A stretch of DNA of 51,742 nucleotides from Gammaproteobacteria bacterium Ga0074134 (GCA_001464965.1 LNEJ01000001.1:1-51742); one strand, 5' to 3'. Shown: positions 3,815 through 37,554, numbered from the stretch's first letter. Numbers and translations are program-made. Notes: generated by a model not told the origin, from the sequence alone.

Positions 3815-3918
3815 AGAATCCCCAAAAACTGCTTAACGATAGATATTCCTGCCCTCAAAAATCGTCTGGTCAAGCCGATACAGTGGCATGGACCCAACTG
3901 ATTGCTGGAAATATCCCC

Positions 3919-19835: not shown

Positions 19836-20978
19836 TTACTCTTGGGTTTCCTTGGTCTTTTCCGCCTTCTGTTCCAGCCTCTTCAACACACGGTCTATCA
19901 TGCTTCTCAAAATCTTGTCTGATGAAAAACCGGAGGCAATTGCAAGAATTGCATAAACATAGCCTACAGCTCCGGAATGAATATGCAGAGTGATTAGCTG
20001 GGGCGCCTGATCTGCCATACCATTAGTAACCGGCTCTATCGAAAAGACAAGCTTGGATAGCTCCAACACATAGATAAAAATAGCGGCAAAGGCACTGATG
20101 ATGGGTTTTGAGATTACATAATGCAGCATGTATCGCCAGAAAGGACCTTTGACAAACAAAAAGTCCTCCTTGGTAATCAGATTGCTAAGGTATGCCCCCA
20201 TTCCGCCAAGCATCGCCATGGGTATGGCCACGTCTTTTAAAGTATGCCACGCATGTGACTCATCCATTTGCGAGGAATAACCCAGAGACCAGAAAAGGAA
20301 CATTATCAAGCCCAAAAAAATGGCACTTGTCAGGCTCACCATGCTGTTCAAAGAGAGTATCCAGAATGCATGATCCATCTGATCATTCACAATCCTCAAT
20401 GCCTCCTTGAGGACATGCCTGACCTGGCCCATATTCTTCTTGGCATTCAGCTTTTTCAGCTCTGCCATGGTTTCCGTAAGCTTTTCTTGCAGATCTTCCG
20501 TTGGCTTAGCTTTTAGCCCTGCCACAATATCTGTCAGCCTTTTTTTTAGCTCCCCAAGCTTTTCTCTGGTTTCCAGCTCATCAATGACCGCCGTCAGCTT
20601 CCCCTTCCGGCCATCGCTTCCCAGCCACTCTTCCCTGATATGTTTTTCCTTGATGCTCAAACCGAAAAAGGTCTTAATGTCTATTGCCTTGCTCAACACC
20701 TCCTCATCCGGTATGAGCAGAATGATATCCTCATCAACGCGATGCACGAGGCTCCAGAAAATCTTGTGCTTTTTGCCAAACGGCAACTTTGGCTCAAGAG
20801 CAGCCTTGGCATTTTCCAAGCGCTCTCTACATTTCTCCAAGATTTCTTCCTGAACCCCATCCAGCCCGCCACGCTTTCCAATAACATCCAGCGTTTCCAT
20901 GAGATCTATACGCTTTGCCCAGAGATCTTCTTCTGCCGGGTTTATCCACCAATTGAGTTTTTTATCATTATTACCCAT
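19836..20978 (-). CDS. Unknown coiled-coil membrane protein
   Basis: A 380-residue protein I do not recognise. The N-terminal 190 residues are highly charged and helical, with probable coiled coil around 120-185 (ELETREKLGELKKRLTD and neighbouring heptads). The C-terminal half has three or four membrane segments (about 205-230, 245-265, 280-305 and 335-355), then a basic tail. No signal peptide is seen, so the charged half is probably cytoplasmic. GAGG stands 8 bases before the ATG. It is the last gene of a likely tsaD-VIT-LolA-like operon, 34 bases after the LolA-like gene. Confidence 0.7.
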   Translation of the reverse strand: MGNNDKKLNWWINPAEEDLWAKRIDLMETLDVIGKRGGLDGVQEEILEKCRERLENAKAALEPKLPFGKKHKIFWSLVHRVDEDIILLIPDEEVLSKAIDIKTFFGLSIKEKHIREEWLGSDGRKGKLTAVIDELETREKLGELKKRLTDIVAGLKAKPTEDLQEKLTETMAELKKLNAKKNMGQVRHVLKEALRIVNDQMDHAFWILSLNSMVSLTSAIFLGLIMFLFWSLGYSSQMDESHAWHTLKDVAIPMAMLGGMGAYLSNLITKEDFLFVKGPFWRYMLHYVISKPIISAFAAIFIYVLELSKLVFSIEPVTNGMADQAPQLITLHIHSGAVGYVYAILAIASGFSSDKILRSMIDRVLKRLEQKAEKTKETQE

Positions 20979-21012: not shown

Positions 21013-21852
21013 TCATTTGATATTTTCAATACCCAACTGCATCGCGCGTTTTGAAAAGGATTCTTCAGTAAGGCCGACATTCAACTTGATGTCGGCGATA
21101 GTCAACAGTGTCTTATTCCCCGTTTGAACATTCATCCCCACCACCTCTTCCCACACCCAGGCATCATTGATCTTTTTCCATTTAGTGAACTGCTGTTTTT
21201 GTAATTTATTGCGCTCATCGTAATAATCAATACGCATTGGCAAGAAATTATCCTTGGATATCCATCGCACAACTTTCCCATAAGGATAAAATTCCGCGCC
21301 GCCTTTCTTGGGAATGCTCTCTATGACATGACAAACAACGCCTTCCATTGTTTCGGATGTCAATAATTGATGCGTGTCGTCATCGGGACTTCTTGGGACA
21401 AGATCGAACTGCCTCAATTCCGATTTCGAGAATTCCTCTTCCTTGGCATGTTTCGGCCCCGTATGGCTCAGCCTTCTAACCATGCGCAGCTCGGGAAGAT
21501 AGATCCACTCATCGTCATTTTTATTAAGTTCCGGCTTATAAAAAACCCCCAGATAAGAAACACCTTTGGCATCAGGAGGAAATTCACGGAACATCATGAC
21601 CTTTGTGTCGACTTCGCCTGCCCCCTTGAATTTTTTCCACGCCATGGAGTAGATCAGTTTTTTTTCAGGCTCCCCTTTTTCCTGAAAAATAAAGGTAATT
21701 TTTGACAGGGAATCATCTCCGCCATAGACCTCGAAGGATTTCTTCATGATGGCGCCGGCAGTAAGCTCTTCCGCATGGGCAGTCACTGCGACAGACGCGA
21801 TCAAAAAAATAATAATGCCCAGCCATCCAGTGAAAACAGTCCTGTTATTCAT
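21013..21852 (-). CDS. Outer-membrane lipoprotein-sorting (LolA-like) protein 1
   Basis: A 279-residue secreted periplasmic protein with a signal peptide (about 1-27, ending VTAHA). The family resembles LolA and carries the blocks MMFREFPPDAKGVSYLG, WIYLPELRMVRR and a late WVWEEVVGMNVQTG. These proteins are thought to carry lipids or lipoproteins between membranes and commonly occur beside RND permeases. The ATG at 21852 has AGAGGG about 9 bases upstream; the long open frame before it overlaps the VIT gene and lacks a signal peptide. A second member lies at 35384-36235. Confidence 0.85.
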   Translation of the reverse strand: MNNRTVFTGWLGIIIFLIASVAVTAHAEELTAGAIMKKSFEVYGGDDSLSKITFIFQEKGEPEKKLIYSMAWKKFKGAGEVDTKVMMFREFPPDAKGVSYLGVFYKPELNKNDDEWIYLPELRMVRRLSHTGPKHAKEEEFSKSELRQFDLVPRSPDDDTHQLLTSETMEGVVCHVIESIPKKGGAEFYPYGKVVRWISKDNFLPMRIDYYDERNKLQKQQFTKWKKINDAWVWEEVVGMNVQTGNKTLLTIADIKLNVGLTEESFSKRAMQLGIENIK

Positions 21853-24083: not shown

Positions 24084-25595
24084 ATGATACAGGCAAGCGG
24101 TTTAACCAAGATATTCCCTTCCGGCAACAAGGCCGTGGACGGGCTGGATCTCCATGTAAAAGAAGGAGAGATCTTCGCCTTGCTCGGTCCGAATGGCGCG
24201 GGGAAAACCACCACCATCCGCATCTGCTCAACACTCTCCGGCTTTGACGCCGGAAACGTGCGGGTCGCAGGCTATGACGTTGACAAAGATCCTGAAAAGG
24301 TCCGCGAATCCATCGGCGTCGTCGCGCAGCAGACCGGCATCGATTATTTTCTTACCGGACGCGAGAACCTTGTCCTGCAAGGCCATCTCTACCGGATGAA
24401 AAAAGCCGACATCCACGCACGGGTCGCAGAGCTTGCCGCCTATTTCGATCTGAAGGACAGCTTGGACCAATTGGTCGCCACCTATTCCGGTGGCATGCGC
24501 AGAAAGCTGGATATCGCCACTGCACTGATCCATCGCCCCAAAATCGTATTTCTTGATGAGCCGACACTCGGGCTGGACATCAAGAGCCGCAAAAATCTGT
24601 GGGCCTATATTGAAAAACTAAACCGCGAACTGGGCCTCACCATTTTATTGACCACCCACTACCTGGAAGAGGCGGACAAACTTTCCCACCAGGTTGCCAT
24701 TATCAATGCAGGCAAGATACGCATCACCGGCACGCCGGAAGAACTGAAAACCGGCATCCACGGCGATTCCGTACAGCTGACCTTCGAGCAGAATGACGCA
24801 CAAGTGGGCGCCTTCGCCCACACCTTAAAAAGTCAGCCAGAAATCAAGGATACCGTGTGGCAAGGCAACAAACTGCACATTTATGTTGAAAACGGGGCAT
24901 CAAGCGTGCCGCACATCGCCCTTATCGCGTCACAGCAGGGCGTTCATATCAAGACCCTGTCCCTCTCCCGCCCGACACTCGACGATGTATTCCTGAAATA
25001 CACCGGCAGCAGCCTGGAAGAAACCAAGGAAGACACCGGGCAAGAATGGTGGATGCAGTGGGCCGGCAAAGGCGGGGGCGGCAACTGGCAGAAAAAATGG
25101 GGCGGCGGACAGGAAGACGCCAGCGGCGACAACCCCAACACTGAAACACCAGAAACAGCCTCCTCGTCTCCAGCACAAGCATGGACGCAGGAAGAAATGG
25201 CGGAATGGTGGAAAAATAAGGGGCAATCCAGCGCTACCTCCGATACCGTCACAGAGAACACCGGGCAAGGCACCGTGGAAGCCGCCGCTCCCCCTGTGCA
25301 ATCCATGAATCCAGCACAAGCATGGACCAAAGAAGAAATGGAAGGATGGTGGAAAAATCAAGGGCAATCCAGCGGCACCCAGGGATCCCCTGACACATCT
25401 CCCTCCGCCGTCGAGGAAGCCACGCCACCTACTATCCAACCCGTGAATCCAGCGCAAACATGGACCAAAGAAGAAATGGAAGAATGGTGGCGCAACAAGG
25501 GACAATCGCCATGGCCTGCCGACAATAGCAGTCAGTGGGACGGCGCACCGCCGGATAAAACCGGGGAAACCCAAGACACAGGCAAAAAAGGCTAA
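24084..25595 (+). CDS. ABC transporter ATP-binding protein, DrrA-like, with Trp-rich repeat tail
   Basis: A 503-residue ATPase. Residues 1-310 are a normal DrrA/NatA-type domain: Walker A GPNGAGKT (35-42), signature YSGGM (134-138), Walker B IVFLDEP (154-160), H-loop TTH (190-192), and the C-terminal RPTLDDVFLKYTG. Residues 311-503 are an unusual extension: a W/G/Q-rich start (EWWMQWAGKGGGGNWQKKW), then three copies of a 21-residue repeat, PAQAWTKEEMEGWWKNQGQS-like, at 363, 410 and 456, spaced 46-47 residues apart. It pairs with the permease that follows. The tail has no signal sequence and should be cytoplasmic. Confidence 0.9.
   Translation: MIQASGLTKIFPSGNKAVDGLDLHVKEGEIFALLGPNGAGKTTTIRICSTLSGFDAGNVRVAGYDVDKDPEKVRESIGVVAQQTGIDYFLTGRENLVLQGHLYRMKKADIHARVAELAAYFDLKDSLDQLVATYSGGMRRKLDIATALIHRPKIVFLDEPTLGLDIKSRKNLWAYIEKLNRELGLTILLTTHYLEEADKLSHQVAIINAGKIRITGTPEELKTGIHGDSVQLTFEQNDAQVGAFAHTLKSQPEIKDTVWQGNKLHIYVENGASSVPHIALIASQQGVHIKTLSLSRPTLDDVFLKYTGSSLEETKEDTGQEWWMQWAGKGGGGNWQKKWGGGQEDASGDNPNTETPETASSSPAQAWTQEEMAEWWKNKGQSSATSDTVTENTGQGTVEAAAPPVQSMNPAQAWTKEEMEGWWKNQGQSSGTQGSPDTSPSAVEEATPPTIQPVNPAQTWTKEEMEEWWRNKGQSPWPADNSSQWDGAPPDKTGETQDTGKKG
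25170..25511 (+). repeat. Three in-frame repeats in the ABC ATPase tail
   Basis: Copies at 25170-25232, 25311-25373 and 25449-25511 encode PAQ(A/T)W-T-(Q/K)-EEM-x-x-WW-(K/R)-N-x-GQS. The copies are close in DNA sequence, and their spacers are rich in S, T, P and G. This points to local tandem duplication. Confidence 0.85.
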
Positions 25596-25636: not shown

Positions 25637-26398
25637 GTGCTCGCGGATACATGGTACTTATTTGGCAAATACATGAAAATCACCATCAGGATGCCCTGGT
25701 GGTCACTCTTCACCCTTATTCAACCGCTGATCTGGCTGGTGATCTTCGGCCAGCTTTTCAAAAACATCTCTCAGCTCCCTGGCTTTCCAGCCAACAGCTA
25801 CGTCGATTTTTTTGTCCCTGGCGTGCTCATCATGACCGTCCTGTTCGGATCGTCATGGTCTGGCGTCAGCCTATTAAGAGAAATCACGGCTGGCACCATC
25901 GACAAGATGCTTGTCGCGCCGGTATCGCGCACGGCCATCGTCCTTAGCCGGGTACTGCACTCGGCTGTCCAGGTGCTCGCCCAAACACTGATCATCCTCG
26001 CCATATCCCTGGCGCTAGGCGCAGCCACCAGCATCAACCCGCTATATATCAGCATGGCCATGCTCATCATCTTTCTCCTGGGGGTAGGGTTCGCCGCGCT
26101 GTCGAATGGTTTCGCCATCATGCTGCAACGCGAGGAACCACTGGTCATGATAGGCAATCTGATGACCCTGCCACTGATGTTTTTCTCCACAGCGCTCATG
26201 CCGGAAAACTTCATGCCCGACTGGATCGACTATGTTGCCGCCATCAACCCGATCCATTACGCCGTGGAAGCGGTGAGAGCGGTATTAATCGGAACACCCG
26301 ATTTCGGCATCTATTCAAAGGGCCTGCTGGTACTGCTGGTGTTTGCGGGAGGCACGCTCGCCTGGGCAGTGAACGCGTTTAATTCTTTGCGGGAATAA
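25637..26398 (+). CDS. ABC-2 type permease, DrrB-like
   Basis: A 253-residue inner-membrane permease with about six helices and the family signature near the C-terminus (PEN...DW.DYVAAINPIHYAVEAVRA). With the preceding ATPase it forms a two-gene exporter for a lipid, polyketide-like or other small hydrophobic molecule; the substrate is unknown. The GTG start at 25637 has AGGG about 10 bases upstream. It is convergent with the TPR gene, only 7 bases apart. Confidence 0.92.
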   Translation: MLADTWYLFGKYMKITIRMPWWSLFTLIQPLIWLVIFGQLFKNISQLPGFPANSYVDFFVPGVLIMTVLFGSSWSGVSLLREITAGTIDKMLVAPVSRTAIVLSRVLHSAVQVLAQTLIILAISLALGAATSINPLYISMAMLIIFLLGVGFAALSNGFAIMLQREEPLVMIGNLMTLPLMFFSTALMPENFMPDWIDYVAAINPIHYAVEAVRAVLIGTPDFGIYSKGLLVLLVFAGGTLAWAVNAFNSLRE

Positions 26399-26405
26399 GA
26401 GCCTG

Positions 26406-29135
26406 CTAAAAAAACAAGGTTATCCCGGCTGTAAGGAGAGATTTTGAGTAATCTCCCAAGGCCCTGCTTTGCACCCCGATAATATCCTGCGCTCTCAGGA
26501 CAAGCCCTACAGGGAGATTCGAGTTGTTATTCTGGAATGAATAACTGGCGAAGGCCCTCAGCTTATCGTTGATTTCATAGCTCAAACCCAGGGAGAGGGA
26601 ATTAAACACATTGGCTCGGCGTTGCTGGAAATTGGTAACTGAATCGGGATTGGTGTAGAAGTTAAAAGCGAGGTTGTACACCGCGTTAGCCGACAATTTT
26701 GCTGAAAATGACTTATCAAAACGCAGCATGGCGCTATGGCCATTGTAAGCATAGTCGTGCCCTTCGGGCTGCGTATTACGGTTATTGATATAGTCATAGC
26801 TCAGCAAAATAGACCGCCCAAGCCCTAATCCCTGATTGAGCGTCAATCCTGTCGAGTACGTCACAGAATCAAAAAAGCTACTCGTATTACTCGTAAAATC
26901 TCTATACGATAAATTGAATTTCATTGCTGTCGGCGCGCTTTTTCTTTCCTCGGGCGCTGCAAGCCTACCGAACAGAGAAGGCATCTCAAAGCGCCATATA
27001 GTGTCGGTATAGACATTATTCCCGACACTTACTCTTTGCTCATTGAGCAAGCCAGAGATGTCGGTGCGCGTCCCACCCAGCGTCACATTCCTGTTACTGG
27101 GACCCCAAGTAACAAATGGGCCAATATCTATTCTTGTAAAATCCGCCTGTGAAAAATGATATATCATGTAAGCAGGGCTTAACATCAAGCCACTTCTAAC
27201 ATTCCTGCTCAACTTATAGCGGTAGGTCATATTCAAAGAAAGATTTGATATATATTCGTAGAATGGGGCCGTTTTATTCAAATTACTATTATTGTCATAA
27301 GTCAACGAATAACCCATGTTATAGGTAAATCCGTTGATTTTGCGTTCGAGCCCCGGGATTTTCTTCTCAGCCGTCACCACCAGCGGGGTTACTCCCCCAT
27401 TCTGTACTATAAACCTGTATTCCTTGAGTGCATCTTCTTCACGGTTCGAGTTTTCATAAAGCAAGGCAAGGTTGCCGCGCGCGCTAAGATTATCGGGGCT
27501 CAGGCCAATAATCTGTTGATAGGTCCGCTCCCCCTCGCCCAGTTCACCTTTTTTTGTCTGAATCAACGCCGTGTAAAACAAAGCAACTATATCGCTTGGA
27601 TTTTTCTGCAGAATATCGTCAAAATGTTTTTTTGCAAGGTCCGTTTTATTTTTCGCGAACAAGTCCCTTGCCACGGCAAGCTCTAATTTATTTCTAATCC
27701 GCTCCGCCTCTGCAGGTTCTTTTTCCAGAGCAACAGCCTTGTTATAGGCGTCGACCGCTTTTTCGTACAATCCCTTGTCATCCTGAAGCAGCCCAATATA
27801 GAAATAGGCCTTGGCATGATCAGGATTGATGCGAATCACTTCTTCAAATTCACGCAGCGCGTCATCGCGCAACAATTGCCTTGCATAGAGCACTCCCAGG
27901 TTAAAATGCGCCGTCAAGTCATTGGGGTTAGCCGCCAAGGTCTTTTTATACCCCTCCCTTTCGTCCGCCAACTTGCGTGCCTCGGCCAGTTTCTCACCGA
28001 AAGTATCCTGCATATTGCGAAGAATGGCGGCAGCTTGCTGTCCAGGCGGAGTATTGGCACCCATGGAAATCACCGCCTCCAACTCTCTGGAACTCTCTAC
28101 ATATTTATTTGTCTCCATATACAGCACGCCCAGCCGGAATCGCGCTTCCAAATGGCGCGGCTCAATCTCCAGCAATTTCTTGAACGTAGCCACCGCCTCA
28201 TCTGGTTGCTTTAATTCACGGTAAATCGTTCCTATATTAAAAAGGGCCATCAACTCATTAGGGTCAAGGGTCAAGACCCCTTGAAACTCTTTCAACCCTC
28301 CTTGGAGATCTTTCTTTTCGAGTAACTGAACCCCTTTTATAAGCCCAAGCCTGACAGTGGCCTTGAGCCCAATATCACTTCCCGGCTCAAGCGCAATAGC
28401 CCGCTTTAACTGTTCTACAGCAAGCGGAATTTTGCCACTTCTTTCATACACTCTGGCAAGATAGAAGTGGGGCGTTGCACTACCGGGCACAAGCAGCGCC
28501 ACTTGCTTAAAAACACCCTCGGCATCATCCAGACGATTGAAGTTAAAAAACGCCAGTCCCACGGCGTGCAAAACACGCGGATCATCGGAATAGTCCCTAC
28601 GCAGCACGGCCCCCAGAGCCAAAGCCTCATCGACATTGCCAGCCTCCGCATATTGCCGGATCTGGATCAGATAAAGGCTTTTCTCTGCACTTCTGGCCTC
28701 ATCCGTTCCTGGCGATTTGGACATAATGAGCTTGTACTCCTTTGCTGCCTCACCCAGCTGGTTCAACTGCTCATAAGCAAGCGCAAGCGAGGCGCGCACT
28801 TTCAAGTTTCCGGGTACAAGCGTTGAGCTTTTCTTGATGTATTCCAAACCCTCATTCGGCTGGTTCTTACGCATGTATATAACACCGATGTAATAAATAG
28901 CCTCGGCATTTTCGGGCGCAATCTTGGCTGCAGAATTGAAACTAAGCAGCGCGCCATCCAGATCACCCTTCTCCATCTGTGCTTTACCACGCACTATAGC
29001 CTGTTCGAGCTCAAGTGATTCCGGAGGTGCTCTTGTAATGTCAGATCCCGATGGTTGCTCCGCTGCAAAGACGAACTCCACATCATGAAGCAATAAAAGA
29101 TTCAACAAAAAAAACGGCAGCAGCCTTTTCTTCAC
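26406..29135 (-). CDS. Exported TPR protein with C-terminal outer-membrane barrel
   Basis: A 909-residue secreted protein: signal peptide (1-24), about a dozen tetratricopeptide repeats to about residue 600 (for example AIYYIGVIYMRKNQPNEGLEY and AKAYFYIGLLQDDKGLYEKAVD), then about 300 residues of alternating beta structure ending in aromatic FF, typical of an outer-membrane barrel. The layout resembles BcsC, PgaA and PelB-type exporters, in which periplasmic TPRs feed a barrel, but I cannot assign a polymer. The GTG start at 29135 has a weak binding site. A mobile-element-like repeat separates it from the next gene upstream. Confidence 0.85.
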   Translation of the reverse strand: MKKRLLPFFLLNLLLLHDVEFVFAAEQPSGSDITRAPPESLELEQAIVRGKAQMEKGDLDGALLSFNSAAKIAPENAEAIYYIGVIYMRKNQPNEGLEYIKKSSTLVPGNLKVRASLALAYEQLNQLGEAAKEYKLIMSKSPGTDEARSAEKSLYLIQIRQYAEAGNVDEALALGAVLRRDYSDDPRVLHAVGLAFFNFNRLDDAEGVFKQVALLVPGSATPHFYLARVYERSGKIPLAVEQLKRAIALEPGSDIGLKATVRLGLIKGVQLLEKKDLQGGLKEFQGVLTLDPNELMALFNIGTIYRELKQPDEAVATFKKLLEIEPRHLEARFRLGVLYMETNKYVESSRELEAVISMGANTPPGQQAAAILRNMQDTFGEKLAEARKLADEREGYKKTLAANPNDLTAHFNLGVLYARQLLRDDALREFEEVIRINPDHAKAYFYIGLLQDDKGLYEKAVDAYNKAVALEKEPAEAERIRNKLELAVARDLFAKNKTDLAKKHFDDILQKNPSDIVALFYTALIQTKKGELGEGERTYQQIIGLSPDNLSARGNLALLYENSNREEDALKEYRFIVQNGGVTPLVVTAEKKIPGLERKINGFTYNMGYSLTYDNNSNLNKTAPFYEYISNLSLNMTYRYKLSRNVRSGLMLSPAYMIYHFSQADFTRIDIGPFVTWGPSNRNVTLGGTRTDISGLLNEQRVSVGNNVYTDTIWRFEMPSLFGRLAAPEERKSAPTAMKFNLSYRDFTSNTSSFFDSVTYSTGLTLNQGLGLGRSILLSYDYINNRNTQPEGHDYAYNGHSAMLRFDKSFSAKLSANAVYNLAFNFYTNPDSVTNFQQRRANVFNSLSLGLSYEINDKLRAFASYSFQNNNSNLPVGLVLRAQDIIGVQSRALGDYSKSLLTAGITLFF

Positions 29136-29457
29136 GTAACGATCACTCTGACTGCGCGTTCTTTCTGAGACTATGGCATGACAAAATCATTAACTTCCCT
29201 CGATTATCCTAGAAACGGCAGTTGAACGGTGTGGAGTGTGCGGTTTTCAGGGTGCAGGGTAAGGCGCAACGACGCGGAATGGTTGTTCCATTCCAAGGAG
29301 TTGCAACGCTGCCATGCGCACTGAAAATCGTGCAATCCGCACCGTAGCGGCCTCACCAAACAGATGAGTCCGCAGGGTATGACAAACCCCGTCTAAAACA
29401 TATTGCTAATCGTCCAAAGAAGCGGTCAACTGCCGTTTCTAGGATTATTATCCACCG
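29136..29457. other. Intergenic region filled by a MITE-like element
   Basis: This stretch lies between the TPR gene and the outer-membrane protein gene and holds the element described at 29206-29445; the short remaining flanks show nothing else, and no clear promoter for the TPR gene was found. Confidence 0.6.
29206..29445. mobile_element. MITE-like element with 20-bp terminal inverted repeats
   Basis: Ends are exact inverted repeats, ATCCTAGAAACGGCAGTTGA at 29206-29225 and its complement at 29426-29445. Inside, 29226-29345 folds as one long imperfect palindrome centred near 29285 (GGAATGG-TTGTT-CCATTCC at the tip). No transposase frame is present. Target duplication is not clear. It is probably a non-autonomous insertion mobilised by an IS elsewhere. 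Confidence 0.75.
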
Positions 29458-30381
29458 TCAATAATAAATATTGATCTTGAGCAATGCCTTCCATCCGTTA
29501 AAAGAGAGCCTTAGCCGCTGATAACCCGAACCGTCTTCCGCCTGGTATTCAAGATTACCGGCTTCGGGATCGGAAACACCGCTTACTGCAGGCCTGGGCC
29601 GAACAGGGGTATTCATAAATACACCATCAGTGGGCAAAAAATCTCTTTCGATATTATTATTTCTAAACGTAAATTTGCTGAGGCCGTAGCTATAATTTGC
29701 CTCAAACCCAAGCGATAGCCATTTCTTAAAAAAAACTTCCCCACCAACCCCCGGCTGCAACATGAGGACCCCCGTAGCTTTCGAGTCAATAACGAAGATC
29801 TTCTTGAATGTTGCTGCAGGACCATCCAGATACAGGAATACCCAGTCTTCTCGATAGCCGATATCAAAAATTTCGTGCAGCGATAACCGGAAATACAGAT
29901 TGTATTTATCAGGCACACTTATCGCGTTGTGTTTCCAGCCCAGGTAAAACTCATTATAGGAAAGCGTGGCCCTTCTGCTGTTTGTAACATTCGCCTCAAA
30001 TCCCTGGACAGGAAACATTCCATTAATAGTCGATTCCGAAGCACCTTGCCAGGTACTTCCTCCAATCAGGAGCGCATTTTCCTTATCTAGCTTCCATTGA
30101 AACTCAACACCTGCCAGAGGCGCATAGTTAATGCTGGGCAGTGGGTTTCTAAAAAACTGGTTTGTAATTCTGGTGGGCGTATCTCCATTCAGTAAATCGG
30201 CCTCATACAGGAGCGGTGCCCTGAACACACCTGCGTTCAGCGCTGTAAGATTAGGCGCGTGAATTCCAAGGATGGGTGAAAAACTCCACTGATATTCATC
30301 CTGCTTGGCATAGGCAACATCACAGCGCGCTAAAATACCTGCCAGGTATGAAATGAACAGAAAAGAAGCTCTGCGCATCAT
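29458..30381 (-). CDS. Outer-membrane beta-barrel protein, unknown family
   Basis: A 307-residue exported protein with an N-terminal signal (MMRRASFLFISYLAGILA...) and amphipathic strand pattern throughout, ending IYY. Blocks such as YNEFYLGWKH, LQPGVGGEVFFKKWLSLGFEANYSYGLSKF suggest a barrel of 8-14 strands. No family is recognised. The ATG at 30381 follows the RND stop at once, inside AGAGGC; a GTG 15 bases earlier would overlap the RND gene. Tight coupling to the RND permease implies a common task. Confidence 0.72.
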   Translation of the reverse strand: MMRRASFLFISYLAGILARCDVAYAKQDEYQWSFSPILGIHAPNLTALNAGVFRAPLLYEADLLNGDTPTRITNQFFRNPLPSINYAPLAGVEFQWKLDKENALLIGGSTWQGASESTINGMFPVQGFEANVTNSRRATLSYNEFYLGWKHNAISVPDKYNLYFRLSLHEIFDIGYREDWVFLYLDGPAATFKKIFVIDSKATGVLMLQPGVGGEVFFKKWLSLGFEANYSYGLSKFTFRNNNIERDFLPTDGVFMNTPVRPRPAVSGVSDPEAGNLEYQAEDGSGYQRLRLSFNGWKALLKINIYY

Positions 30382-30385
30382 GCCT

Positions 30386-32881
30386 CTACGCAACACCTTG
30401 AGATATTCCTTTAACAGGGCGCGGCTTGAAGTAGGAAAATACCACGGGTAACGCCATCAACGCCGCCAAACAACTCACCACCATGTATGCGGCGACAAAA
30501 TACCCCAGCTTCTGGTTGGGAGGGAACTGGGAAAAGAACAACACCAAAAATCCCACTGTAACAATCATCGCATTAAACACGATAGTCTTGCCGACGCTGC
30601 GCAGCGTACCCAGCGTAGCAATCCGGTGATCATTTTCTTTTTGCCGCTCGCGGCGGTAGCGGAAAATATAATGTATCGCGTAGTCCACGCCCACACCGAT
30701 TGCTACACCCGTTGCCAGCGTCGTCGAAACGTCGATGGGGATACCCATGAAACCTGCGCATCCCGCAATCAGCACTGTCGCGAGCGTTACGGGCACGATG
30801 GTTACCAGCCCCACGGAAAAAGACCGGAACAGCAGCGCCGCAAGCAGGAATATGCCCAGTTTTGACAGCACCAGCGCCAATCCCTGCCCCCTAATTAACA
30901 GCTCTGCCCAAATGAAAGAGTTATTGGCAGAACCCGCCAGATTGACTTTAACATCCAGGCCGGACATTTCCTTCTTCACAAAATCATTGACCCCATCGAT
31001 GATCACTTTAAGATCACCGGTATGGTCCGTCTTGATAAAAAATGTCACGTTGGCCTGCCGGTAATCATAATCTATGACTTCATTCAGCAACTCGGGCTGC
31101 CCGGAGATGGAAAACAAAAAGAGATCTTCGGCAACTTCCGCTTGAGACGCCGGCAACACGTTGTACTGTGGTGCATCCGCATGCAGCGTTTTGTTCATGC
31201 TCTTCAAATAATCAACCACGGACAGTGAGTCGCCCACATAAGGCAGGCTTTCAACCTTGGTCTGGAGCGCCTCGATTTTCTTCAGTACCGCGAGCGACTT
31301 GAGCGCATCTTTTTGCTTGCCTTCGACAACCACATTCAGGAATATTGTTCCATCGAACTTCTTGTTCAGCATGTCGTTGGACAGCGCCACCTCGCTGTCC
31401 TTTTTGAAGTCGCTCATCCAGCTTGAATCTACATGCAGCAGCGTTATGCCATAGATACCCAACACGGTCATCACAACCAGCGCGAGGCTCACACTTTTTT
31501 TATTTTTGAGTACGACCTCTCCCCAGCTCACCAAAGTCCGGGTAATCCGGTCCTGCTCCGCATGAACGCGCATTGCGCGCCGCTTTGCCAGATAGTCACC
31601 GACCTTCGGCTTCAATTGACACAGCGCGGCGGGGAGAAAGGTCACGGACAGCAGCCAGCAGTATAGGATGCCGAGCACCGTGAATAAACCAAAGGTCTTG
31701 AATGGAGGCATTTCCGAAAACCACAGGGAAAGAAACCCTATCGCCGTCGTAAGCGACGTTGTAATCAGGGGAGGGCCGAGCTCCTCCAGCACCTGACTAA
31801 CAATCACCTTTCCTTCCCTGTAAGGATCGCTTAAAACATTATCGTAATAATTGGTTAACAGATGAACGGCATTGCCTATCGCCACCGCCACCAGTATCAC
31901 CGGCAACATGGTGGAAATGGTATATAACGGGACATTGAGGACCGCCATCGTCCCCATGGTCCAAATAATGCCAGCTGCCATTATGAATAAGGGCAGTACC
32001 ACGCCACGCAATGTTTTGAACACAAAGAAGAGGGTAACCATAATCGCCACTATCAGCAGTGGTATCATGACCTTCATGTCCTGCATGGCATAGAATCCCG
32101 AGCTGACCTCGATGACCGGCCGGCCTGCCATGTAAAATACATCGGCGTCCTTGCCAGCGGCCGCACCGCTCTTTGCGGATGACTTGTCCTGCTGCGGCCA
32201 GTTCCCTTGCGGCCACTGACCCTGCCCACTGCCTTGCGGCCACTTGCCCTGTTGCCAACTGCCGCCACCGGCGGACTGACCACTCCACGAGCCACCCCCT
32301 TGTTCCGCGGCGAGTATCCCCTTGATCTGCCAATAAGTCTGATACCGGTTAGCTATCCCCTCTTTGAGTTTGGCGCGGATCATGGCCCCCGTGCCATCCT
32401 TGGAAACGATATTGCCTACAAACAAATCGCTATTGCCGTAAACAGCGCTCTTGAGCCGCTCGATACCCGCCTTATCGGTGGGCACGGTTTCCATGAGCCG
32501 CTGTGTGCTCAGCTCCGACTCCGTTCCAGTGAACACAGTGGCGGTCGACAGTGAAGCCACATCTATCGTCCGGTTGGCAATCACCCCCGGCAGCGCCGAA
32601 ATTTTCTCCGTAATGCGCGCAATGCGCGCCAGCGTCTTGGGGTTAAAAATACCCTCTTTTTCATTGACAATACCGATAATGACCGCATCCTTGACGCCAA
32701 ACACCTCATCGACCCTTTCATCATAGAGAATCGCGGCGTGGCCCTTGGGGAGATAAACACGGGCATCCGTCTCCCAGTGCAGCTTGGGCAATTGAAAAGC
32801 AAAAAATACCGTGATTGCGGCGATGACGAGCATCACGCTTTTGGGGAACATCGTAACTGCGGTGTATAACCTGTTCAGCAT
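30386..32881 (-). CDS. RND-superfamily (MMPL-type) permease with Trp/Gly/Gln-rich insert
   Basis: An 831-residue inner-membrane permease with two related halves, each made of one helix, a periplasmic domain and five helices (GVGVDYAIHYIFRYR in the second half, VAIGNAVHLLTNYYDN in the first). It resembles MMPL/HpnN-like exporters of lipids rather than drug pumps: it is single-chain, with no membrane-fusion partner nearby. Residues 194-244 of the first periplasmic domain are a low-complexity insert rich in W, G, Q and P (for example QGQWPQGNWPQQ), unusual for the family. DUF1302-like and LolA-like genes nearby are typical companions. Confidence 0.88.
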   Translation of the reverse strand: MLNRLYTAVTMFPKSVMLVIAAITVFFAFQLPKLHWETDARVYLPKGHAAILYDERVDEVFGVKDAVIIGIVNEKEGIFNPKTLARIARITEKISALPGVIANRTIDVASLSTATVFTGTESELSTQRLMETVPTDKAGIERLKSAVYGNSDLFVGNIVSKDGTGAMIRAKLKEGIANRYQTYWQIKGILAAEQGGGSWSGQSAGGGSWQQGKWPQGSGQGQWPQGNWPQQDKSSAKSGAAAGKDADVFYMAGRPVIEVSSGFYAMQDMKVMIPLLIVAIMVTLFFVFKTLRGVVLPLFIMAAGIIWTMGTMAVLNVPLYTISTMLPVILVAVAIGNAVHLLTNYYDNVLSDPYREGKVIVSQVLEELGPPLITTSLTTAIGFLSLWFSEMPPFKTFGLFTVLGILYCWLLSVTFLPAALCQLKPKVGDYLAKRRAMRVHAEQDRITRTLVSWGEVVLKNKKSVSLALVVMTVLGIYGITLLHVDSSWMSDFKKDSEVALSNDMLNKKFDGTIFLNVVVEGKQKDALKSLAVLKKIEALQTKVESLPYVGDSLSVVDYLKSMNKTLHADAPQYNVLPASQAEVAEDLFLFSISGQPELLNEVIDYDYRQANVTFFIKTDHTGDLKVIIDGVNDFVKKEMSGLDVKVNLAGSANNSFIWAELLIRGQGLALVLSKLGIFLLAALLFRSFSVGLVTIVPVTLATVLIAGCAGFMGIPIDVSTTLATGVAIGVGVDYAIHYIFRYRRERQKENDHRIATLGTLRSVGKTIVFNAMIVTVGFLVLFFSQFPPNQKLGYFVAAYMVVSCLAALMALPVVFSYFKPRPVKGISQGVA
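32150..32302 (-). repeat. Low-complexity W/G/Q/P-rich coding segment of the RND gene
   Basis: Codes residues 194-244, made of short imperfect units such as GGGSW, QGKWPQG and QGQWPQG. It lies in the first periplasmic loop of the permease. Confidence 0.8.
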
Positions 32882-32908
32882 GGCTGTAACGGCATCCTTT
32901 ATACAGTG

Positions 32909-32994
32909 ACAGGCTGGCGGGAGTGAACCCGCCAGCCTGTGAATTTATTCTGCGTTGACTTTACATAGCGGAAAACCCGCTCTTTGGGTTTTCC
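32909..32994. repeat. Two perfect hairpins between the DUF1302-like and RND genes
   Basis: A 13-bp stem, ACAGGCTGGCGGG and its complement (32909-32940), and a 9-bp stem, GGAAAACCC/GGGTTTTCC (32970-32994). No T-run follows either on the minus strand. They may be mRNA stabilisers or processing sites that set unequal levels of the two proteins. Confidence 0.7.
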
Positions 32995-33022
32995 GGTAAA
33001 ACTTCCGTATTAAACCACACCG

Positions 33023-34528
33023 TCAGAATGAATATTTAAAATCCATGAAAATACGATCATTATCATGGAAATAACCAAGAAATTGTGGCCTTTGCTGCGT
33101 AGCGGCAACAATGGGCGAGATGCCCCCGCCGGGATCGCCAAAAAAGCCCTTTTTGCCCCAAAAGAGATCCATTCCAACCCCTACCTGAAACTTATCGGTC
33201 ACCTGAAAGGTAACCTTCGGTTTCAGGTAGGATTCACGCATATTAATCAGATATATCCATAGAAATTGCGCCGTGGCGGAGTGCTGCGGAAACTCTTTTC
33301 TGCCAAAAAGGTTCAAAGAACTGTCGTTCCGCGCCTGAATCAATTCCGGATCATGATTCAATATTATCCATTGCGTAACGCCGGGCGACAAATCCAGACC
33401 GCCTATATTGAAATCCAGCCCCATCCCCCAGCGGATATGATCCCGCTGCAGCGTTCCATTATTATCAAGGTAGCCGTCGTTATTCCTATCCACTGTATTT
33501 TTCAATCCAAAATACTTGCCCGTCACATAAGCCGCCTCGCCTTTCAGAATAACCGGACCGAGCTGCTTGACCGCAGTTCCGCCGTACATCGCTATCCTGG
33601 TATAGGTTGGATACAAGACAGGATCTTCCTGCTTATCAAGCCTGATCGTTCGAAAAACGGTGGGGAAAAAATCCCATGTGTATAAATAGCTCAGCGACAC
33701 CTCCGTATTGAAGATATTGGTGGTCGCCCTGAGCCCTACCTCGGAATTCTGTAGCTTGAACGACTGGGGTTTTTTGGTTAATAAATTTCCAAAATTATCT
33801 CGTATATCCTGAAGAAGCTCCCATTCAGAACCGCGCGGCGCCGCCTTGTGAAATTGAAGATCGGGGATCAACAAGAATTGATATGTGGTATCGCCGCGAT
33901 AATGATCCATCTTCAGCGTCCACTGGGATATCCTATAATCCAGCAAATCAGGCAGGATCAACTCCCTGAAGTCGACCGGGTTGACTTCGTCCACGATCCT
34001 GACGCCTTCCAGCACACCCCACACGACATACTGCTTACCCAGCCGGATATCGAGGTTTTTCAGGAACACATCAAAATAAAGCTCCCGGGTTGCCGCCACC
34101 GGGGAATCTTTCTCATGCTCAAGATTTTCGACAAAAACCAGAGGCTGTTGGGCATCCCGCTGTGACCTTGCTGCAATCGTGCGGTAATCAAATAAATCAT
34201 AGGCCAGATCATAATAAGCCCAGCCAGCATAGTTAAATTTAACATTCGAACTAAAAGGGTATTGCGCATTCACATAGAAAATATTCCGGACCTTGGTAAT
34301 GGATCTTGGCTCACGGAACCGGAATGCGGTTTCATTCTTCAAATAACCGCTCACCCTCAGCTTGGACCAAATGGAAGATTTCTCCTTTTGAGCATCGCCC
34401 CCCCCCGCTGCCACCCCAAAACCGGCATCTTGCCCTTTGGTCTCATCGGCAAACGCGAATTGATGGCTGGCCATCACAACCGCAACCCACAGGACGGCGG
34501 CGTAGTGCACTATCTTTTTTCTATTCAA
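33023..34528 (-). CDS. DUF1302-like outer-membrane beta-barrel protein
   Basis: A 501-residue exported protein with a signal peptide (about 1-28, ending FAFA) and a large barrel ending FKYSF. Blocks such as LDIRLGKQYVVWGVLEGVRIVDEVNPVDFRE are typical of the DUF1302 group, proteins often coded with LolA-like/DUF1329 proteins and RND permeases and thought to take part in hydrophobic-compound transport across the outer membrane. The TTG start at 34528 overlaps the stop of the regulator gene by four bases (TTGA), with AAGGA 9 bases before; coupling to the regulator is likely. Confidence 0.85.
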   Translation of the reverse strand: MNRKKIVHYAAVLWVAVVMASHQFAFADETKGQDAGFGVAAGGGDAQKEKSSIWSKLRVSGYLKNETAFRFREPRSITKVRNIFYVNAQYPFSSNVKFNYAGWAYYDLAYDLFDYRTIAARSQRDAQQPLVFVENLEHEKDSPVAATRELYFDVFLKNLDIRLGKQYVVWGVLEGVRIVDEVNPVDFRELILPDLLDYRISQWTLKMDHYRGDTTYQFLLIPDLQFHKAAPRGSEWELLQDIRDNFGNLLTKKPQSFKLQNSEVGLRATTNIFNTEVSLSYLYTWDFFPTVFRTIRLDKQEDPVLYPTYTRIAMYGGTAVKQLGPVILKGEAAYVTGKYFGLKNTVDRNNDGYLDNNGTLQRDHIRWGMGLDFNIGGLDLSPGVTQWIILNHDPELIQARNDSSLNLFGRKEFPQHSATAQFLWIYLINMRESYLKPKVTFQVTDKFQVGVGMDLFWGKKGFFGDPGGGISPIVAATQQRPQFLGYFHDNDRIFMDFKYSF

Positions 34529-34956
34529 ATCCGATCCTTACATTGATCACAAAGGATAATATGACCTTCGCCGGACACCCCCAAGCCAAACGTAACCAAC
34601 ATTCCCGGTGCAAGCCGCCGTCCACAGCCAGAACAATCCATTTGCCTGTTTAGCTTGATCTCTTCCCATCCCAAAACTGAAGGAAATCTGGGCGGTTGGG
34701 ATACGGCATTTACAGCTGCTTGCGGATTCGGCACCACAAAATTGTGCCCTGCAGCCTGCCCCTCGGAAAATGCCTCTTCAAGAATCTTACGGATCAGAAT
34801 CGAGACCGGCACACCCAGATCACTCGCTCTTTGTATCACCCGATCCCTCAGCGTCTTAGGCACCCTGGCACCCAAAAACTCTTCCTTACGCTTCATTGCG
34901 ACAGACATTGCCTTGTCTCGCATGGCCTGCGCTTGTGTTATCGGCCTCTCACGCAT
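34525..34956 (-). CDS. Ribbon-helix-helix-like regulator with C-terminal zinc ribbon
   Basis: A 143-residue protein. Its first half, MKRKEEFLGARVPKTLRDRV followed by DLGVPVSILIRKILEEAF, has the length and pattern of a ribbon-helix-helix DNA-binding domain; the second half ends with a zinc-ribbon pair, CSGCG and CDQCK. It is probably a DNA-binding repressor that may sense a metal, redox state or ligand. It heads the run regulator, DUF1302-like, RND, outer-membrane protein, and a 20-bp inverted repeat overlaps its own promoter, suggesting autoregulation. No close named family is recognised. Confidence 0.72.
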   Translation of the reverse strand: MRERPITQAQAMRDKAMSVAMKRKEEFLGARVPKTLRDRVIQRASDLGVPVSILIRKILEEAFSEGQAAGHNFVVPNPQAAVNAVSQPPRFPSVLGWEEIKLNRQMDCSGCGRRLAPGMLVTFGLGVSGEGHIILCDQCKDRI

Positions 34957-34963
34957 AAACTTA

Positions 34964-35015
34964 CCCTTAATGAATGTATAACAATGAAAAACATATGTTA
35001 TACATTCATTAAGGG
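34964..35015. promoter_or_regulatory. Perfect 20-bp inverted repeat, probable operator
   Basis: CCCTTAATGAATGTATAACA (34964-34983) and its exact complement (34996-35015) are separated by 12 bases. The repeat begins 8 bases upstream of the regulator's start codon and overlaps the predicted promoter, so bound protein would block transcription of the regulator and the genes behind it. Confidence 0.8.
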
Positions 35016-35023
35016 GACGTCAA
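34994..35023 (-). promoter_or_regulatory. Probable sigma70 promoter of the regulator operon
   Basis: On the minus strand TTGACG (35018-35023) is followed after 15 bases by TATAAC or after 17 by TAACAT. The right arm of the inverted repeat fills the space between the hexamers. Confidence 0.55.
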
Positions 35024-35383
35024 GAATCTAAAAAAGACATACCACCAAGAATGGTAAAAGAAGAATAAATAGAAAAAACTATCCGGCGGGCTTCAAAACA
35101 AGATGCCGTCCCTGAATAAATACTGGAAACCACAAGGCCATCCATGGCTATCTTTGCCGTGAGCTAGGGCCAGTCTGCCATGGATGGGATAGAGCAGAAT
35201 TCCCTGGCCTGCCCCCCGTAAGAACAGATTCTAAGGGAAGCTACGCGCTGCCCTTCAGGGTGAATGAGACCACCTGAATAGTTAACTCAATCTGCCTTCA
35301 CTCCAGTCTACGCGGGGAGATTGGGAACATCCATTTATCAGAACACTCCCCGCCACACGCTACAAAACATCCAGCGGTGCGAC
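35016..35383. other. Structured intergenic region between LolA-like 2 and the regulator
   Basis: No gene is seen in this 368-base stretch. It holds several inverted repeats: CCATCCATGGC/GCCATGGATGG (35138-35148 and 35177-35187), GCGGGGAG/CTCCCCGC further towards LolA-like 2, and a weak stem followed on the minus strand by a T-run near 35077-35115, which may end the LolA-like transcript before the regulator's promoter. The density of structure would suit an untranslated RNA or degraded insertion; no known riboswitch consensus was recognised. Confidence 0.4.
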
Positions 35384-36235
35384 CTATTTGCTATACCCTT
35401 TCTCCAACGTCCTTTCCACAAAAAGGTTATCCTGCAGACCAATATTAATCTCTACATTGCTAACTTCAAACAGAGATGCGTGCAGGGTTTGTACATTCTG
35501 AACAACCACCTTATCCCACACCCATGCCGGCCCCACTTTTTGCCAGCGCAAATTTTGCCTTTTCAGTAAATCGCCCCTTTTGTCATAATAATCGACCCTC
35601 GCCTTGACACAACCATCCCAGGCAGGCGTCTTCAGAAACCAGGATATACGCTTGCTGTACAGTGGGTTCTTTTCCTTCGGCGTACTTTCCACTACGTAAA
35701 ACTCGTTATTGTTGGCGGGCTCGATGCGGATCAGTTTATGCTCATCCTCATCCCATGCCCTGCCGCTGATATCGGCATAGGTCAAATCCGACCCCAAAAA
35801 ACTATCTCCTGGATCCCTGATTGAAACACGCCGTATCTTTCTCAACGCCGGCAAATAAATCCACTGATCGGCATTCTTGTCAGCCTCACGAGTAAATGCC
35901 CAACGCATAAAAGCCGCACCCTGGGCATCAGGAGGAAATTCCGTGAAGAGAATCATTTTATCGGCGACACCCTCGGCCCCCTTATAATCCTTCCACAACC
36001 GGAGGTAGACATTTTTCCTCTCGCTCCCCGAGCTGTCCTTGAGAATAATCGCCAGCTTTGAACGCTGATCATTACCCGGGTTTTTGTAATCGCAGTTCTT
36101 GACGACATCTTCTCCCGTCACAGCCGCTGCACCGTCCTGAGCCGCGTGAACCTGATGCGTAACAGTCACGCTGGACAACAACAATGAAAGTGCCATCAGA
36201 TAACGATTAATACTGAAATCCATCAATGGACTCAT
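35384..36235 (-). CDS. Outer-membrane lipoprotein-sorting (LolA-like) protein 2
   Basis: A 283-residue periplasmic protein with a signal peptide (about 1-31, ending HQVHA). It is a paralogue of the protein at 21013-21852; shared blocks are MILFTEFPPDAQGAAFM, WIYLPALRKIRR and WVWDKVVVQNVQT, and both end with a NIGL or NVGL stretch. Such proteins are proposed lipid or lipoprotein carriers and usually accompany RND permeases, as here. CAGGAG stands 6 bases before the ATG. It is separated from the regulator by a structured 368-base stretch. Confidence 0.85.
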   Translation of the reverse strand: MSPLMDFSINRYLMALSLLLSSVTVTHQVHAAQDGAAAVTGEDVVKNCDYKNPGNDQRSKLAIILKDSSGSERKNVYLRLWKDYKGAEGVADKMILFTEFPPDAQGAAFMRWAFTREADKNADQWIYLPALRKIRRVSIRDPGDSFLGSDLTYADISGRAWDEDEHKLIRIEPANNNEFYVVESTPKEKNPLYSKRISWFLKTPAWDGCVKARVDYYDKRGDLLKRQNLRWQKVGPAWVWDKVVVQNVQTLHASLFEVSNVEINIGLQDNLFVERTLEKGYSK

Positions 36236-36544
36236 GGTCGACTCCTGTTTTGTTTTATTACGGTTTCATCCCGGCGATCAAAGTGAACGGACTCGGCTCC
36301 GGCAGAGACCTGAAGCTCAGGTCACAAAATCCAACCTGTTCGAAATCTATAGGAAATTACCCCGATTGATCAAACCTTGTCAAACACTTTTGACCTTTTC
36401 TCAAGTAGCACAGGGGAAAAAGAGAAATGTGATAATCCTAGCTCGTTAAAGAAGCCCCTTGGTAGCGCGAAATCTCGCACATAAAAAAAGAGAGGGGGTT
36501 CTAAACCCCTCTCTTTTGGCTACACCACCCGAATTGCTCGGCTA
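36236..36544. promoter_or_regulatory. Intergenic region with LolA-like 2 promoter candidate
   Basis: On the minus strand TTGACA (36378-36383) is followed after 18 bases by TAATTT (36354-36359), a possible promoter for LolA-like 2. The terminator of the secreted-protein gene occupies 36486-36517. Nothing else is seen. Confidence 0.35.
36486..36517 (-). terminator. Rho-independent terminator of the secreted-protein gene
   Basis: Stem AAAAGAGAGGGG against CCCCTCTCTTTT with an 8-base loop, followed on the minus strand by a T-run; it lies 28 bases past the stop codon. Confidence 0.88.
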
Positions 36545-37471
36545 TTAGAATGTGGGCGCAGGAGTCCCGAACAGCGCTGCATTATAGGTGCTGGGATCAA
36601 ACAAAGGCTTTTGCGTCAATGAGAATGTGCTAATCAGGCCAGCAGCGGGGGCCGGGCTAAGATTCTCGTAGGATTGGAAGCCGAAAAGCGTCTGACCCGT
36701 ACCAATTGATACAGCCTGACCAATGCCGATAAGTTTCACATCATTACCAGCCGCATAGGCCAAGGTCTGATTAGTAGTCCCACCGGGAATGGGGGGTAAC
36801 GTAAAGCTACCAGGAGCACTAACAATAGTACCCGCACGCTCACGCAGAATAAATTTTTGGCTATCCGTAGCGCCACCACCCACGGCAAGCGAAACATTCT
36901 GATCAAGATTCAAGTTCTTGCTTACAACGGCACCCAGCGGATCGGCAATCTGGGTCAGCGCAAAAGAAGTGTCAAACCTGTTAATTTGGTCATTGAGCAA
37001 CTGGTTTAAAGTCACCTCTGACAGGCCGCTCGCCTGTGCCCAGCCAGTCTTCAGGTCGGTAGTGGCAGTGAAATCGGTCGTGCCCGCTGGAACTTGGGCA
37101 GAACCAGGCTGAAAGATCCTCTGGCTATCGATAATACCACCAACTGCCCCACCCCTCACCAAATTCGAATCGTAGAAAGGTAGCGTCGCAGGGGCACCAC
37201 TGACTGTCTTGTCTGTCACGATGGTTTGAAAATACAAGGTACCGGTAGCCAACTCAGTCAATTGACGCTGGATAAAACCCTTATCAGTAACAAGGGTAAC
37301 GCAACTCCAACCTGTAGCCGGACATACACTCGCCGCATCGATAGCAATATCACCGTTCGTTACACTCCAACCCGTTTTAGGATCATAGCCCGGCGGCTGT
37401 GCCATCGCCGCGCCCGCAAGAATCAGCGCAGCGGAACCTGCGGAAACCATAAATATTATCTTGTTACGCAT
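36545..37471 (-). CDS. Secreted protein of unknown function
   Basis: A 308-residue exported protein with a signal peptide (about 1-24, ending AAMA) and no later membrane segment. The mature part is rich in T, G, A, S and N, has only two cysteines (in VCPATGWSC), and shows a pattern of short strands with repeated TGW motifs (KTGWSVTNG, ATGWSC, KTGWAQ). I do not recognise the family. The ATG at 37471 is chosen over a TTG 15 bases earlier because GGGGAG is 8 bases upstream. It has its own promoter, a CRP-type site and a terminator, so it is a single-gene unit. Confidence 0.72.
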   Translation of the reverse strand: MRNKIIFMVSAGSAALILAGAAMAQPPGYDPKTGWSVTNGDIAIDAASVCPATGWSCVTLVTDKGFIQRQLTELATGTLYFQTIVTDKTVSGAPATLPFYDSNLVRGGAVGGIIDSQRIFQPGSAQVPAGTTDFTATTDLKTGWAQASGLSEVTLNQLLNDQINRFDTSFALTQIADPLGAVVSKNLNLDQNVSLAVGGGATDSQKFILRERAGTIVSAPGSFTLPPIPGGTTNQTLAYAAGNDVKLIGIGQAVSIGTGQTLFGFQSYENLSPAPAAGLISTFSLTQKPLFDPSTYNAALFGTPAPTF

Positions 37472-37554
37472 ATCATATCTCCCCAATCAAGACGCCCAAT
37501 TTAGAGGCAGGCTCTCCGCCCCATCCAAAACACCTGAGTACACCTGTGGACATA

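Follow-up and report, generated by a model that had tools for sequence, protein, structure and literature searches.

Little is understood so far of how RND, LolA-like and DUF1302 proteins take hydrophobic molecules across the periplasm. In Castellaniella defragrans, a DUF1302 outer-membrane protein, a LolA-superfamily periplasmic protein and an HAE3-like RND permease are encoded together in AmeABCD, the deletion of which lowers terpene tolerance (PMC6394551). The assignment of DUF1302 to the outer-membrane barrels is a published inference from the same work (PMC6394551), which also reports that the RND protein HpnN functions with no fixed partner in the periplasm or the outer membrane. A Thalassolituus MMPL/LolA-like protein was 42-fold more abundant on C28 alkane (PMC6304351), and the PG1175-81 genes of P. 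gingivalis, which include MMPL, LolA-like and ABC genes, are iron-regulated, which connects a related operon with iron limitation in Bacteroidota (PMC10434189). Here we analyze a related but larger locus in an uncultivated lineage of Gammaproteobacteria (Gammaproteobacteria bacterium Ga0074134; genome, 2.9 Mb). It lies on one entire 51.7-kb contig (hereafter, the window) and adds to the three core families two further outer-membrane proteins (OMP29 and a tetratricopeptide repeat [TPR]-barrel protein), a ribbon-helix-helix (RHH)/zinc-ribbon regulator, an ABC exporter and an exported protein designated Sec36.

A first-pass annotation of the window had proposed an undescribed trans-envelope system, consisting of a run of genes for a regulator, a DUF1302-like barrel, an RND permease, a further outer-membrane protein and a TPR barrel protein, with a LolA-like carrier just upstream and a second carrier plus an ABC exporter nearby. 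All of these genes were located as intact open reading frames at the positions given, and both carriers belong to PF17131. The remark that RND, LolA-like and DUF1302 proteins often occur together was borne out by AmeABCD and by operons of Prevotella, Haliovirga and Acinetobacter. Novelty, however, does not extend to the core of RND, PF17131 LolA-like and DUF1302 proteins, which is already known. It lies instead in the larger assembly, which is conserved and for which (OMP29, TPR-barrel, RHH/zinc-ribbon protein and W-tailed ABC ATPase) no description was found in the open-access literature searched, together with three features that had been overlooked: the co-occurrence of Sec36, Trp-rich segments in the RND permease and ABC ATPase, and an O-methyltransferase gene, or its remnant, in the locus. 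Sec36, which is encoded inside the annotated stretch yet was not mentioned there, is the most informative gene of the set.

We give about an even chance to the reading that these genes together form a single route, dedicated to exporting a hydrophobic or lipid-like molecule across the envelope, in which Sec36 is the surface partner. Export of such a molecule is favored because the core trio recurs in other phyla and because related sets have been connected with hydrophobic compounds (PMC6394551, PMC6304351). The earlier proposal would have fallen had gene order been conserved in no relative; it stands on that point and is partly supported, as a putative transport system with a presumed hydrophobic cargo.

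Gene order was compared by tblastn with the window genes, followed by mapping of 22 further loci. Many relatives share both the order and the strand of the genes, and thus the arrangement is not due to chance. The order recurs within the genus and the family and in other families of the class as well: it was repeated in three genomes of the same genus, two of the same family and one of another family. The locus was cut by a contig end in a third same-family genome, and LolA1 was 7 kb away in a genome of a further family (G042). Two of the same-genus relatives are metagenome-assembled genomes, one of them from groundwater. When a class sample of 370 genomes was searched with profiles, DUF1302 orthologues (E < 1e-180) were detected in 26 genomes from eight families. 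The consensus order, Sec36-(O-methyltransferase)-LolA-zinc ribbon-DUF1302-RND-OMP29-TPR, convergent with ABC permease-ATPase, is wholly or largely preserved in eight families, and it holds down to 25-35% protein identity. The collection searched contains just eight genomes of the host order, seven of which retain the cluster. The gene tsaD was a neighbor in 14 loci, which makes the locus look like an ancestral one and not one built up by piecemeal acquisition. LolA2 is kept in the genus and family, and LolA is doubled in two loci (L107 and L109). A phylum-wide sample of 397 evenly drawn genomes returned the window's own case and no further cluster, and thus the cluster is rare and lies in sparsely sampled lineages; a plasmid search returned no orthologue of the whole set.

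Trp-rich segments are present in both the RND permease and the ABC ATPase. In all 20 cluster-linked ABC ATPases the DrrA core is followed by a hypervariable tail (∼7-12% Trp) that nearly always opens with a conserved EWWxQWAGKGGGxW-type motif. In the cluster RND proteins, the first periplasmic loop has an insert that is hypervariable and rich in Trp, Gly and Gln; the count reached 4 to 8 Trp in 60 residues (median, 6) in 26 relatives versus 1 to 4 in 21 non-cluster RNDs. These segments suggest a tie between the two operons, and they represent an unusual architecture that is of interest whatever the cargo. By standard topology the ATPase tail is cytoplasmic and the RND insert periplasmic, so that a direct contact of tail and insert is not obvious. 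The view of the ABC exporter as an unrelated neighbor was abandoned: the Trp tail was present in 20 of 20 linked copies, and of 25 cluster-free genomes only 1 had a close homologue of the ATPase core. The ATPase reached the DrrA model (330.5 versus 312.45 bits), whereas the permease missed the DrrB cut-off (TIGR01247, 135.3 versus 223.05 bits) and reached ABC2_membrane.

Sec36 has no Pfam or NCBIfam family. Its relatives have in common a Cys pair, a GFLQRQ...TIITD stretch and a WIGQ...FGFQS stretch, and in most of them the gene adjoins LolA1. The AF2 model is all-beta (predicted local distance difference test [pLDDT] score, 75), with no confident structural match (best Foldseek E value, 0.58). 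A VIA Z score of 9.8 to porins, with a root mean square deviation of ∼9 Å, was taken as a generic beta meander, and two-domain proteins behind one signal peptide speak against Sec36 being a porin. In the class sample, the Sec36 profile (A4) matched 28 genomes: all 26 that have a DUF1302 orthologue and two others (G294 and G297), which belong to cluster-carrying families. The other 342 genomes had neither gene. The Fisher test for this near-perfect co-occurrence (6e-38) is far too optimistic because the genomes are related; it is fairer to say that Sec36 and DUF1302 are both found in the same eight families. An overlapping, hand-picked set gave Sec36 in 24 cluster genomes versus 0 of 24 others.

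The same association would be seen if the Sec36 family were the cargo of a protein secretion route, in which the TPR domain would capture Sec36 in the periplasm and the barrel or barrels would export it to the surface, with the RND and LolA-like proteins energizing or chaperoning the process. The link of the cluster to an expanding exported family and a TPR-barrel protein keeps this explanation alive. Dispersed Sec36 paralogues, with up to 12 domain matches per genome and two-domain forms of 654 to 731 amino acids, are as expected of clients; some of the genes stand in arrays alongside other large exported proteins, the host has one additional full paralogue, and Sec36 apparently has its own terminator. 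BcsC, PgaA and Slam, which also have a periplasmic TPR domain fused to a C-terminal barrel, are outer-membrane exporters. However, the plain Sec signal of Sec36, which lacks a lipobox, leaves no evident role for the LolA-like carriers, a loose C-terminal FGxxPxF is the only common export tag seen, and elsewhere HAE3 RND and PF17131 proteins are associated with hydrophobic molecules. Secretion of Sec36, the main alternative to the export route, appears rather unlikely to be the function of the locus. A fuller version, an undescribed machinery in which the RND pump, LolA-like carriers and a TPR-barrel translocon would secrete Sec36 surface proteins while disordered Trp-rich segments couple the ABC exporter to the RND pump, is also improbable.

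LolA1 matches PF17131 (3e-42; 144.8 bits versus a curated cut-off of 30) and, by profile, the structures 9tp6, 3bk5 and 4z48. The RND permease is nearest to the HAE3/MMPL exporters of lipids and hydrophobes: MMPL (PF03176) was matched well above the cut-off (6.3e-36), the best family was HAE3 (TIGR00921, 5.7e-69, 233 bits versus a cut-off of 351.9), and profiles matched HpnN and MmpL4/5 structures. Like HpnN and the MmpL lipid transporters it is of the RND superfamily, but HpnN lacks fixed partners, as noted above, and 21 control RNDs have no Trp-rich insert. As judged by eye, Sec-type signal peptides are present at the start of every outer-membrane and periplasmic product. The window copy of OMP29 has no Pfam match; its AlphaFold model (pLDDT, 88) is an eight-strand outer-membrane barrel that VIA matched to the OprF N-domain (Z score, 19.2; 1.8 Å over 133 residues) and OmpW (Z score, 17.5), a modeled fold that is common and does not indicate function. 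In the DUF1302 gene of G003 (C7:1727533-1728990) there is a premature stop, which would remove the last strand and terminal aromatic residue.

The TPR protein, called an exporter in the first-pass annotation, matches many Pfam TPR families and has a conserved C-terminal barrel domain, and its role as an exporter is putative. The barrel matches none of the BcsC, PgaA and Slam families with any consistency, and its profile found no credible relative in the PDB. Only the TPR region matched the BcsC and PgaA models, below cut-off (NF008520, 40.4 versus 858 bits; TIGR03939, 32.9 versus 366.65 bits). SlipAM (PF04575) was not detected in the window copy and was weak in 1 of 23 members (E value, 0.011), and a few members had a weak match to generic porin families. 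Of 30 related loci, 24 have a homologue of the regulator, which is RHH-like at its N terminus, and both CxxC pairs are present in every one of these homologues.

Because the core families are those of AmeABCD and of the alkane-induced Thalassolituus proteins, the locus might confer hydrocarbon or solvent tolerance or uptake, with toxic hydrophobic compounds pumped out, or taken in, by the same proteins. AmeB, however, is a DUF1329 protein of 451 amino acids rather than a PF17131 carrier, and AmeABCD as described (PMC6394551) is without the TPR-barrel, OMP29, RHH/zinc-ribbon protein and Sec36. No AmeC-type COG4447 protein was recognized among the nine cluster proteins with Pfam and NCBIfam, there are no catabolic genes nearby, and retention in seven of eight genomes of the order is unlike an accessory tolerance trait; this function seems quite improbable. 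The MMPL-LolA-like-DUF1302 operons of Bacteroidota, Fusobacteriota and Acinetobacter have the same three-gene core, and those of Prevotella and Haliovirga have ABC ATPase genes nearby. However, no homologue of OMP29, the TPR-barrel, the RHH/zinc-ribbon protein or Sec36 was detected in the three stretches from Prevotella, Haliovirga and Acinetobacter, to which identity is 21-33%.

That these are unrelated envelope genes kept together by ancestry is highly doubtful: the cluster-bearing genomes may share descent, tsaD is a conserved neighbor too and vertical descent inflates co-occurrence, but genes overlap, the order is constant down to 25-35% identity, sets are duplicated in G284 and G292, and Trp-rich segments are common to the RND permease and ABC ATPase. 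The overlaps, of 4 bases at the regulator/DUF1302 start (34525-34528) and 11 bases at the RND end/OMP29 (30386-30396), suggest translational coupling.

Several observations weigh against a single dedicated export route. ABC genes were not seen beside six loci (L098, L101, L110, L111, L113 and L115), and four loci are without RND (L102, L112, L114 and L041), although in G284, G292 and G367 the RND-less copy is accompanied by an RND-bearing locus elsewhere. The cluster is not accompanied by biosynthetic genes; its flanks, where examined, consist of housekeeping genes. Furthermore, the terminator-like hairpin suggests that Sec36 may be transcribed apart from the rest of the machine.

For the export route, we infer substrate class, direction, order of hand-over, energy coupling, regulation and complex formation as follows. 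The DrrAB-like ABC exporter would flip the substrate across the inner membrane to its outer face, from which the RND permease, driven by the proton gradient, would pull it out. A LolA-like carrier might then ferry it through the periplasm to the DUF1302, OMP29 and TPR-barrel proteins, which would insert it into the outer membrane or let it pass across; exported Sec36 could bind or display it there. The O-methyltransferase may modify the substrate in some lineages, and the RHH/zinc-ribbon protein presumably controls the operon. Besides its core, the locus has two extra outer-membrane barrels, a TPR domain and an exported family that strictly co-occurs with it, and thus it names candidate receivers and a candidate client that are testable.

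Table 1. Features of the locus in the window, with compartments assigned from sequence and fold
Feature	Coordinates	Strand	Match or basis
Sec36, exported all-beta, Sec signal peptide, no lipobox; candidate surface partner or cargo	36545..37486	-	
Terminator-like hairpin, 12 pairs + T tail, directly after Sec36	36486..36517	-	consensus match only
O-methyltransferase remnant, C terminus only (GFCDLSFRSLPEPSPFTLIAGMKP, stop)	36258..36332	-	
LolA1, periplasmic LolA-like carrier	35384..36235	-	PF17131
RHH + zinc-ribbon regulator	34525..34956	-	sub-threshold CopG_antitoxin match, two CxxC motifs
DUF1302 outer-membrane barrel	33023..34528	-	PF06980 5.8e-14
RND permease, HAE3/MMPL-like, Trp-rich insert at residues ~192-247, first periplasmic loop	30386..32881	-	
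OMP29, 8-strand outer-membrane beta-barrel	29458..30396	-	AlphaFold model
TPR repeats (~residues 45-600) + C-terminal outer-membrane barrel, last residue F	26406..29135	-	
ABC-2 type permease, DrrB-like, convergent with TPR gene	25637..26398	+	
DrrA-like ABC ATPase, WWxQWAGKGGG motif + hypervariable Trp-rich tail	24084..25595	+	TIGR01188
LolA2, second LolA-like carrier, adjoins VIT-type gene	21013..21849	-	PF17131 9.1e-41

An intact O-methyltransferase gene (PF08100 and PF00891) stands between Sec36 and LolA1 in three genomes (G004, G005 and G006) and at three further loci (L099, L100 and L102). The gene occurs in the locus of three families, f77 and f68 among them, which points to a small molecule as the substrate. 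It is intact in sister genera at the place where the window keeps approximately the last 24 codons, and G003 has N- and C-terminal scraps. The rest of the cluster has outlasted this loss, which suggests that the enzyme is not essential for the route. A promoter-like site precedes Sec36 (37583-37554); however, such sites were no more frequent than in shuffled sequence, and thus only the hairpin deserves weight.

Two further observations concern the Sec36 family. L154 (G284:C58:1470-6986) has four consecutive Sec36-family genes, a local expansion. A 571-amino-acid beta-propeller protein of the host (G000:C31:79686-79922; L059:9678-11393) shares only an N-terminal stretch of ∼70 residues with Sec36, and it ends in a Gly-rich stretch with a hydrophobic and basic tail that resembles a sorting signal.

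Rfam and tRNA scans of the window were empty. Beside LolA2, positions 19836-20978 encode a 380-amino-acid protein with a helical-looking N terminus, a membrane C terminus and no Pfam family above the cut-off. Farther away, positions 3883-5676 and 5798-7591 encode tandem 597-amino-acid paralogues, 39% identical and without a Pfam family, the ends of which appear PilZ-like by eye.

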